A DNA stretch of 40,396 nucleotides, from contig JAMFTA010000136.1 of NCBI GenBank assembly GCA_026225565.1, positions 1 to 40,396 on the forward strand. The letters are read 5' to 3'. The position numbers were made by a program, and so were the translations under genes. The notes under the pieces were generated by a model. It was given only the letters and a program-made list of their open reading frames with translations, searched no databases and was not told the DNA's origin. Shown here one piece after another: positions 17,297 through 19,247 of this stretch (position 1 is the first letter of the stretch; the number at the start of each line of letters is the position of its first letter). The stretch is from Caulobacter sp. (GTDB taxonomy: Bacteria; Pseudomonadota; Alphaproteobacteria; Caulobacterales; Caulobacteraceae).

Positions 17297-17653
17297 TCAA
17301 CGCTTCAGCAAGACCTCGACCCCCGCCGCCTCCGCGCCCTCCAGCGCCAGGGGCTTCTCGATCCGCACGCGGGCGGAGCGGGTGTGGGGGTCGGCCAGGC
17401 AGGCGCGGGCCAGGTCCTCGGCGAAGGTTTCCACCAGGTCCACATGGCCGCCGGTGGCCAGGGCCCGAGCGCTGGCGGCCAGGGTCTCGTAGTTCACCGT
17501 GTCGCGGATCGAGCGGATGGGGCGGGGCTCCATGATCAGTTCGATGTCGATGCTCAGGGGCTGGGTGCGTCCCCTTTCATGCGGATGCACGCCGATCTCG
17601 GCCTCCACCTTCAGGCCGCGCACGAAGATCTTCAGCTCATCGGCGTCGGCCAA
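17297..17653 (-). CDS. folB: Dihydroneopterin aldolase
   Basis: A 118-residue enzyme that cleaves dihydroneopterin to 6-hydroxymethyl-dihydropterin in folate synthesis. It carries GVHPHERGRTQPL (substrate-binding Glu), the NYETLA segment, the HVDLVETFAEDLARACL helix, and the catalytic lysine in VRIEKPLALEGAEAAGVEV. Normal length. The start appears to be TTG at 17653, two bases past the stop of the upstream reductase gene, consistent with tight coupling; no ATG start is available that keeps the N-terminal strand. It sits in an operon with a pteridine-reductase-like SDR, which supports the pterin assignment. Confidence 0.93.
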   Translation of the reverse strand: MADADELKIFVRGLKVEAEIGVHPHERGRTQPLSIDIELIMEPRPIRSIRDTVNYETLAASARALATGGHVDLVETFAEDLARACLADPHTRSARVRIEKPLALEGAEAAGVEVLLKR

Positions 17654-17655
17654 GG

Positions 17656-18426
17656 TCAGGGCTCTATGATGTCAGGGGTTTTCCAGCCGAGGTGCTGGGC
17701 GCCGTCGACGGCGATCATCTGGCCGGTCACGGCGCGGGCCCCCGCCAGATAGAGCACAGCGTCGGTGATGTCTGAGAGCCCCGTCCGCCGTTGCAGGGGG
17801 ATGCCGGCCACCTCGGCGTCGAATGTCGCCTGGCTTTGGTGGATGGAGGGGAGGGTGGGGCCGGGGCCGATCCCGTTCACCCGGATATGGGGCGCCAAGG
17901 CCTGGGCCAGGGTCTGGGTGGCCGTATAGAGGGCGGACTTGGAGAGGGTGTAGCTGAAGAACTGCGGGTTGGGCCTGAGCACCCGCTGGTCGATGATGTT
18001 GACGATCGACGGGTCGGCATCCGACGCCAGCGACCCCGCCGCCGCGGCGAAGGCCTGCGCCAGGAGGATCGGGGCGAACAGGTTGGGGCCCATGTGCTCC
18101 GCCCAGCTTTGGGCGGTGAGGGTCTTTATGCTGTCGTCGCCGAAATGGGAGGCGTTGTTGACCAGAAGGGTCAGGGGTCCGACAGCGCCGACGGCGGCGG
18201 CGAGGAGCCTTTGGATCTCATCGGGATGGGAGAGATCGGCGGCGACCGACGCGGCGCGCCCGCCCGCTGCCGCGATCTCAGCGACCAGCGCCTGCGCCTC
18301 GTCGCCCTCGCCGCGATGGTGGATCGCCACGACGTAGCCTGAGGCGGCCAGCGCCAGGCTGATCGCTCGGCCCACCCGCTTGGCCCCGCCGGTGACCAAG
18401 GCGCCGCCGCGGTGGGGCAGCGTCAT
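17656..18426 (-). CDS. FolM/PTR1-like pteridine reductase (SDR)
   Basis: A 256-residue short-chain dehydrogenase. The nucleotide-binding motif is TGGAKRVG (12-19), the TGx3RxG form that marks pteridine reductases and FolM, rather than the common TGx3GxG. The catalytic set is Asp146, Tyr159, Lys163, with an Asp where most SDRs have Ser. The Asp-to-Tyr spacing of 13 and Tyr-to-Lys spacing of 4 equal those of Leishmania PTR1 (181/194/198). NNA is at 90-92. Expected to reduce dihydromonapterin or dihydrofolate-type pterins with NADPH. The start is the ATG at 18426, seven bases after a 26-codon ORF; folB follows immediately. Confidence 0.88.
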   Translation of the reverse strand: MTLPHRGGALVTGGAKRVGRAISLALAASGYVVAIHHRGEGDEAQALVAEIAAAGGRAASVAADLSHPDEIQRLLAAAVGAVGPLTLLVNNASHFGDDSIKTLTAQSWAEHMGPNLFAPILLAQAFAAAAGSLASDADPSIVNIIDQRVLRPNPQFFSYTLSKSALYTATQTLAQALAPHIRVNGIGPGPTLPSIHQSQATFDAEVAGIPLQRRTGLSDITDAVLYLAGARAVTGQMIAVDGAQHLGWKTPDIIEP

Positions 18427-18433
18427 GGCCTGA

Positions 18434-18514
18434 TCAGTCGACGCGGCCGAATTCGAAGAAGTTGATCGCCGCAAAGGCGATGACGAAGATGAAGATGGGC
18501 AGAAGGGCCGCCAT
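18434..18514 (-). CDS. Small single-helix membrane protein, 26 residues
   Basis: A short ORF from ATG to TGA, beginning MAALLPIF and ending FEFGRVD: about 19 hydrophobic residues, then a short polar tail, the layout of a one-helix membrane peptide. GGAG sits nine bases before the ATG, and a well-formed sigma-73-type promoter (18541-18569) would start the transcript about 20 bases upstream, so this would be the first gene of the unit. Its stop is seven bases before the ATG of the FolM-like reductase, so translation may be coupled. No known family recognised; a regulatory leader peptide is the alternative. Too short for ordinary gene calling. Confidence 0.6.
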   Translation of the reverse strand: MAALLPIFIFVIAFAAINFFEFGRVD

Positions 18515-18540
18515 GGGTCGGGTCTCCGAAAGGTGATCTG

Positions 18541-18569
18541 GCTTTAGCCCGTGGTCTCGCCCGCGACAA
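18541..18569 (-). promoter_or_regulatory. Sigma-73-type promoter of the small ORF-FolM-FolB operon
   Basis: On the minus strand: TTGTCGC, 14 bp, GCTAAAGC. The Caulobacter housekeeping consensus is TTGACGS-N10-14-GCTANAWC, so only one base in each box differs and the spacing is within range. The expected transcript start is near 18534, about 20 bases before the small ORF. Confidence 0.6.
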
Positions 18570-18597
18570 GCCGCGGCGGCCGATGTTAGGGAAGGAT

Positions 18598-19068
18598 ATG
18601 ACCTGGCGCCGCACGATCGAACCCTATGTACGCCCCCTGTTTCACGCCTATGCGCGGCGCAGGCGCGGTCTGGTGCTCGGCGTGCGGGGCCTGGTGCTGG
18701 ATGATCAAGGACGGGTGCTGTTGATCGAGCACACCTATATCAAGGGCTGGTACATGCCCGGCGGCGGGGTCGAGCGCGGCGAAACCGCCGAGCACGCCCT
18801 GGCGCGGGAAATGGTGGAGGAGGCCGGGGTGGAGATCATCGGCCGCCCGACCCTGCTGTCGATCCACGACAACCGCCGCATCTTTCCCGGCGATCACGTG
18901 CTGATCTATCGGGTGAATCGGTGGCGGCAGGGGACGGCGACCCAGCGCGGCGAGATTTCCCAGGCCGGTTTCTTTGCGCCGGACGCGCTTCCCGAAGGCA
19001 CGACGCGGGCGACGCGCAACCGAATCAAGGAAGCGCTGGCGGGGGCGGAAGTCGATTTGATGTGGTGA
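18598..19068 (+). CDS. Nudix hydrolase
   Basis: A 156-residue Nudix protein. The Nudix box is complete at 56-78 (G-x5-E-x7-REMVEEAGV), giving the Mg2+-binding glutamates needed to hydrolyse nucleoside-diphosphate-linked compounds. The N-terminus is basic (RRTIEPYVRPLFHAYARRRR), which occurs in a subgroup near the membrane or RNA; substrate unknown. The ATG at 18598 gives the usual start just before the Trp-Arg-Arg motif; another in-frame ATG lies five codons upstream, and neither has a clear ribosome site. Divergent from the pterin operon; no functional link is evident. Confidence 0.9.
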   Translation: MTWRRTIEPYVRPLFHAYARRRRGLVLGVRGLVLDDQGRVLLIEHTYIKGWYMPGGGVERGETAEHALAREMVEEAGVEIIGRPTLLSIHDNRRIFPGDHVLIYRVNRWRQGTATQRGEISQAGFFAPDALPEGTTRATRNRIKEALAGAEVDLMW

Positions 19069-19074
19069 ATCGGT

Positions 19075-19137
19075 CCCCTCACCCTCCCACGCGCTTGCAG
19101 CGCGCGGCCCCCTCCCTCTCCCCAGAGGGGCGAGGGG
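19075..19137. repeat. Dispersed palindromic repeat, family B, copy 2
   Basis: CCCCTCACCCTCCCACGCGC to GGGGCGAGGGG, with inner GCGCTTGCAGCGC and CTCTCCCCAGAGGGG stems. It is the reverse-orientation relative of the copy at 8637-8700 and the same orientation as the copy at 30016. Confidence 0.78.
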
Positions 19138-19151
19138 TTGTCGCGGCTGAA

Positions 19152-19186
19152 CCCTCTCCCCTGCGGGGAGAGGGCAGGGTGAGGGG
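19152..19186. repeat. Short hairpin repeat following B2
   Basis: CCCTCTCCCC-TGC-GGGGAGAGGG is a perfect 10-bp stem with a 3-nt loop, followed by CAGGGTGAGGGG, the same tail as family B. Very stable as RNA or as a DNA cruciform. Confidence 0.7.
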
Positions 19187-19247
19187 CTCAGTAGCGCTGA
19201 CGCTCTAGAAGGGTGAGGGAAGCGGCTAAAGCCCCTATATTCCCCCT

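Follow-up and report, generated by a model that had tools for sequence, protein, structure and literature searches.

A 26-codon open reading frame (ORF) in front of a Caulobacter pteridine reductase gene almost certainly encodes a real protein rather than being a chance reading frame, judging from its conservation across genomes. It is very probably a single-copy gene for a single-pass inner-membrane protein of 26 residues, new to the libraries searched, that acts in trans. The ORF was studied within a 40,396-nucleotide stretch of one contig (the window). The peptide would regulate a larger membrane protein or serve it as an accessory subunit, with Asn18 and the C-terminal tail as its points of contact. 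In Caulobacteraceae its gene would have come to stand in front of folM-folB. This would be a local arrangement rather than the original function, and the translation of folM may be coupled to the peptide gene there as an additional effect. A conserved family of this kind would enlarge the known set of small proteins in Caulobacter and its relatives, a model bacterial group, and its motif is sharp enough for annotation in many genomes. It would also mean that reading sequence alone can pick out real genes below the usual gene-finder lengths. Should the peptide prove to belong to a membrane complex, one of the helices left unassigned in cryo-EM maps of these bacteria might, speculatively, already be this protein.

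A 26-codon ORF precedes the pteridine reductase gene

The ORF lies on the minus strand (18514-18434), runs from an ATG start to a TGA stop and encodes the 26 amino acids MAALLPIFIFVIAFAAINFFEFGRVD, a predicted single-pass membrane microprotein delineated from the ORF list, searches, codon conservation and dN/dS. Seven nucleotides (18433-18427) separate its stop from the ATG at 18426 of the second gene, a short-chain dehydrogenase/reductase (SDR) pteridine reductase of the PruA/FolM type (17656-18426, minus strand). The third gene, on the same strand, encodes the dihydroneopterin aldolase FolB (17297-17653; PF02152). The divergent upstream neighbour is a Nudix hydrolase gene (18583-19068, plus strand; Pfam/NCBIfam search), and uvrC is next beyond it.

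The reductase matched PF00106 in the Pfam/NCBIfam search. Its best NCBIfam model was NF006597, above the cut-off of that model, and it reached only 100.1 of the 249 bits required by NF005066, the equivalog model for dihydromonapterin reductase (FolM). It carries TGGAKRVG and YTLSK, which fit TGX3RXG and YX3K, the motifs of PruA/FolM pteridine reductases according to the available part of PMC13259868; this likeness belongs to the downstream neighbour and not to the peptide.

A GGAG ribosome-binding site (RBS), read from the sequence, is located 9 nt 5' of the ATG (18524-18527, minus strand). The complete 26-residue ORF, its own GGAG and the 7-nt distance to a folM-type ATG, as described in the initial annotation, were all borne out by the coordinates. 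Scoring against a consensus placed a -10-like GCTAAAGC (18541-18548, minus strand) and, 14 nt from it, a -35-like TTGTCGC (18563-18569, minus strand) in front of the ORF. Together, TTGTCGC-N14-GCTAAAGC (18569-18541) scored 12/14 against the Caulobacter housekeeping promoter consensus, in agreement with the sigma-73-type promoter proposed before; a generic sigma-70 scan of the window did not list it. An RBS-like tetramer at -16 to -4 was found in 75 of 77 upstream regions, compared with 13% of shuffles. The promoter score reached at least 11/14 in 38 of the 77, compared with 5.7% of shuffles that preserve two-base blocks only.

The peptide is conserved throughout Caulobacteraceae

A single-sequence search with the window peptide matched 319 of 390 same-family genomes at E <= 1. 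With a profile built from 22 peptides, 341 of 388 genomes of the family gave a match at E <= 1e-3, and all 22 genera were represented. Each matching genome had one copy, with the sole exception of a genome with 7% contamination and two matches. Ten of the 47 profile misses were re-examined with a reductase search and a wider profile. Nine had both the reductase and a 26-codon family match (E 1.4e-6 to 3.5e-3), with the reductase match beginning 1-40 nt downstream of the last peptide codon, and the tenth, a 500-contig draft, had neither. A kept folM beside a broken ORF, set beforehand as the case that would speak against the gene, was not found in these ten re-examined genomes, as all nine with folM had the ORF. 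The peptide was 26 amino acids long in 76 of 78 Caulobacteraceae loci; the Caulobacter segnis form (L197) is MLALAVIFGFIGVICALNFFEFGRID.

Codon conservation and selection on the peptide

The codon analysis was started with 143 loci, from which 6 with a score below 18 and 4 without a match, two of these only 10 bases long, were dropped to give 105 distinct sequences. It rests on profile hits, and the profile itself favours conserved residues, with the stop outside the scoring. A stop followed directly 3' of codon 26 in 103 of the 105 sequences, and codon 1 was ATG in 96. Asn18 was present in 105/105 via two codons, Gly23 in 103/105 via four, Asp26 in 102/105 via two and Arg24 in 95/105 via six. 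The 78 Caulobacteraceae loci had been selected with the pattern [LIV]Nx[FY]EFGRxD, so that the invariance at those residues (74/74) is circular, and it was set aside. The G+C content of the ORF spanned 0.19-0.67 in a motif-selected set (n = 139); some of the loci outside the order were, like this set, also picked with the motif expression.

The dN/dS of the peptide was 0.39 over all codons and 0.55 without the pattern-selected codons, measured in 32 disjoint sister pairs chosen on FolM identity. These values, from the Ka/Ks check that had been suggested for the ORF, indicate protein-level selection. They replaced an earlier, biased estimate on 36 pairs of low synonymous distance, several of which gave values above 1; the median of all close pairs was 0.57. 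FolM had a lower dN/dS than the peptide in the same 32 pairs (0.23), and synonymous divergence was 0.20 for the peptide vs 0.33 for FolM. Taken together, the low synonymous divergence and the dN/dS above that of FolM mean that some constraint may act on RNA or codons; the former could reflect codon bias or an extra RNA-level constraint.

Predicted membrane helix and C-terminal tail

Mean Kyte-Doolittle hydropathy of residues 3-20 was between 1.88 and 3.10 in 103 of 103 sequences (L104 and L132 left out as doubtful), which upholds the membrane-helix composition noticed in the window peptide. The peptide would insert as a single helix of residues ~3-20. A Lys or Arg was present at position 24 in 96/103 sequences and at position 19 in 15/103, and none preceded position 19. 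With Arg24 as almost the sole positive charge, the C-terminal tail is probably on the cytoplasmic side. The tail is conserved as N-x-x-[E/D/T/Q]-x-G-R-x-D-COOH. A constant Asn near the end of the helix and a constant tail that ends exactly at Asp would be expected if the peptide binds a larger membrane protein, and suggest that it does so.

Family libraries, known microproteins and literature

Searches of Pfam and NCBIfam returned no family for the window peptide at E <= 0.01 or at E <= 5, and of 32 members searched, single ones gave matches only at E >= 0.02. None of 177635 PDB sequences matched profiles A1 and A2 at E <= 10. CydX, KdpF and CcoM are single-pass bacterial microproteins that serve as subunits of membrane enzymes. 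The peptide resembles them in being shorter than 50 amino acids with one hydrophobic helix, and in belonging to a class that is often overlooked. However, the CcoM model reached only E = 0.17, for one of the 32 members, and none of the loci read placed the peptide in a constant operon with an oxidase or a transporter.

No paper on this peptide was found by title or abstract start, and six C-terminal peptide strings occurred in no main text searched. The available part of PMC10117765 does not mention ctaA, folM or DUF2842. Ribosome profiling of C. crescentus gave 94 new coding sequences (CDSs), the majority below 50 amino acids and some of them leader peptides, according to the part of the report available (Schrader et al., 2014; PMC4117421), and the peptide gene may be among these 94. 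Like the Caulobacter leader peptides and small upstream CDSs in that part of the report, it is a small CDS directly before a same-strand biosynthetic gene; it differs from them in a protein sequence common to nine families outside the order and in its varied downstream genes.

Gene neighbourhoods in Caulobacteraceae

A reductase match was found in 72 of the 78 Caulobacteraceae loci, a FolB match in 73 and a Nudix tblastn match in 39. All 72 reductase matches were on the same strand as the peptide, 65 within 150 nt of its stop and 7 at ~390-880 nt, so that the synteny expected from the window holds for 65/78 loci. A possible folM start overlapped the peptide stop or was at most 30 nt away in 58 of the 65 adjacent loci, which makes translational coupling plausible.

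The folM match was ~860-880 nt away in L197 (C. segnis), L202 (a Caulobacter metagenome-assembled genome) and L145. In L197 a long opposite-strand ORF intervenes, and the peptide gene is therefore probably transcribed apart from folM there. Reading by eye placed a FolB-like gene right after the peptide in L164 and L167, with the reductase match ~410-430 nt further along; the distance from peptide to reductase is similar in L172 and L180.

The six loci without a reductase match were the six genomes of one genus (g8). In five of them (L140, L137, L141, L142 and L144) an ORF of 108-124 codons adjoins the peptide stop and precedes folB. The likeness of this ORF to the reductase is confined to the C-terminal part with VTGQV (hmmsearch against six sequences, E 1.9e-8 to 6e-5; hhalign probability 90%). 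The g8 reductase is seemingly an in-frame remnant of ~110 amino acids that kept the VTGQV segment and not the nucleotide-binding and catalytic motifs. The g8 peptides were 62-73% identical to that of the window in five of the six genomes and 50% identical in the sixth.

Distribution beyond the family

The profile search of 299 order-wide genomes gave 204 matches at E <= 1. Many of the matches in other families of the order were at 1e-9 to 1e-4; many others were at 0.01-1 and are candidates only. A 32-row profile was run on 385 genomes from across the class. It matched 35 of them at E <= 0.05, 26 at E < 1e-4, and gave no match at E <= 0.05 in the other 350. Of the 26, 21 were outside the order, belonged to 9 families and matched over the full length (1-26); three of these 21 genomes are 1.4 Mb in size. 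A sample of 120 genomes from the phylum, some of them from this class, gave no match below E = 0.028 outside the class. This limit, together with the 341/388 matches in the family, places the ORF beyond chance, as first proposed.

Thirty ctaA loci from class genomes without a match were searched for hidden relatives and none was found (best 5.2 bits, where members retained in the codon analysis scored at least 18). The patchy distribution in the class means that the gene is either old with many losses, or diverged past detection, or moved between lineages.

Neighbouring genes in other families and tests of candidate partners

Twenty loci were read in the order outside Caulobacteraceae, from families f5 (6), f3 (12) and f4 (2). 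All six f5 loci had a folM match downstream, behind an ORF that looked antiporter-like by eye, and three had folB. The f3 loci had UvrC in 8/12, Nudix in 4/12 and folM in 1/12; the other 11 had no folM match within the fetched 3.5-5 kb. Neither f4 locus had folM, folB, UvrC, Nudix or an antiporter-like ORF. CtaA was absent from all 20 loci (3.5-5 kb each).

Of the 21 loci outside the order, 19 had a CtaA match and 18 a DUF2842 match, with both identities checked with Pfam on one locus. The exceptions include L125, at a contig end, and L114, of family f95. In L114 an antiporter-like and then a UvrC-like ORF follow the peptide (by eye), echoing the Caulobacterales neighbourhoods.

At the genome level, CtaA matched in 41 of 44 peptide-bearing genomes; those without a match were G395 (100% complete), G470 (98%) and G198 (82%). 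Of 40 peptide-free genomes sampled in the class, 31 also had CtaA. The ctaA/DUF2842 neighbourhood had led to the proposal of a subunit in the haem A pathway, which G395 and G470 weakened. DUF2842 was found in 21 of 24 peptide-bearing genomes and was absent from G495, G618 (where the peptide match itself is only E = 0.003) and G717, and these three speak against DUF2842 as the partner. G395 and G470 (loci L070 and L073) have the peptide and DUF2842 without CtaA, and the congeneric G462 has CtaA; DUF2842 is thus not simply a companion of CtaA. From the tests of CtaA, DUF2842 and the g8 folM, none of the neighbours examined appears indispensable to the peptide.

Alternative explanations

A chance ORF that owes its open frame to base composition or an overlapping element is very improbable. 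The ORF is short and hydrophobic, and 60 ORFs of at least 20 amino acids overlap 5 kb of the window in a mechanical list, but it is conserved, has a fixed stop and is under selection, and the two other forward frames contain stops in 57/74 and 29/74 sequences. We also consider it unlikely that the ORF is a cis-acting leader (uORF), whose translation would set folM expression by coupling or attenuation with the peptide itself unimportant. The 7-nt gap in the window, the many adjacent same-strand folM genes, the near or overlapping folM starts and the low synonymous divergence would all fit such a leader. However, amino acids, exact length and C-terminus are kept via synonymous codons in front of genes as different as folM, antiporter-like, FolB-like and DUF2842/ctaA genes and opposite-strand ORFs, and dN/dS and the fixed C-terminus show that the peptide is not free to vary. 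In addition, 7 nt leave little room for an attenuator, folM is distant in L197, L202 and L145, and g8 retains recognizable peptides where folM is missing or a remnant. We therefore prefer a microprotein that acts in trans: its sequence, its length and its C-terminus are maintained while the downstream genes differ, and its gene is retained where folM is eroded or ctaA is gone, which favours a free-standing microprotein over a leader peptide.

Two further alternatives, both rather improbable, are specific versions of this trans-acting microprotein. One is a membrane partner of the pteridine reductase, which would tether the enzyme or help reduced pterins to reach the periplasm. It would suit the folM and folB matches at most Caulobacteraceae loci and the folM matches in f5, and the available part of PMC13259868 calls the step by which pterins pass to the periplasm in the Agrobacterium PruA-PruR-DcpA system unknown. 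It is at odds with the peptides kept beside a missing or remnant folM in g8, with the f3 loci, where UvrC is common and folM nearly absent, and with the peptides beside ctaA/DUF2842 outside the order, although these genomes may carry folM at another place. The other would put the peptide in the pathway of haem A and the aa3-type cytochrome c oxidase, as a small subunit or an assembly factor. Single-helix small subunits of oxidases are of a known kind, and CtaA and DUF2842 accompany the peptide at most loci outside the order, with CtaA in nearly all peptide-bearing genomes. On the other side, G395 and G470 keep the peptide without a CtaA match, CtaA is also present in most of the peptide-free class genomes sampled, no CtaA match turned up in the 3.5-5 kb of each of the 20 order loci beyond Caulobacteraceae, and no PDB chain matches the peptide profiles.

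The initial annotation had offered a regulator or partner of the reductase, or a leader that controls pterin synthesis. The part that stood is a conserved peptide gene that is mostly just before folM in Caulobacteraceae. As a general explanation a pterin role did not hold, given the gene beside an absent or remnant folM in g8, the distant folM at 7/78 loci, the f3 loci and the DUF2842/ctaA neighbourhoods. It is a sizeable possibility, somewhat short of an even one, that the trans-acting microprotein is an undescribed core microprotein, found in the order and in nine or more other alphaproteobacterial families and retained even in genomes of 1.4 Mb. It would then be indispensable to some conserved machine of the inner membrane, as a small subunit or a regulator, and would be missing from the libraries searched because it has only 26 residues.

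Minor observations

DUF2842 (PF11003) is within ~1 kb of ctaA in many of the alphaproteobacterial genomes examined, including that of the window (contig C116), and none of the papers searched in full text names it. Between the Nudix gene and uvrC, the window contains at ~19075-19190 a G+C-rich, inverted-repeat-like element (ccctcaccctc ... ccctctcc ... gggagaggg ... gggtgagggg), which looks like a dispersed palindromic repeat.
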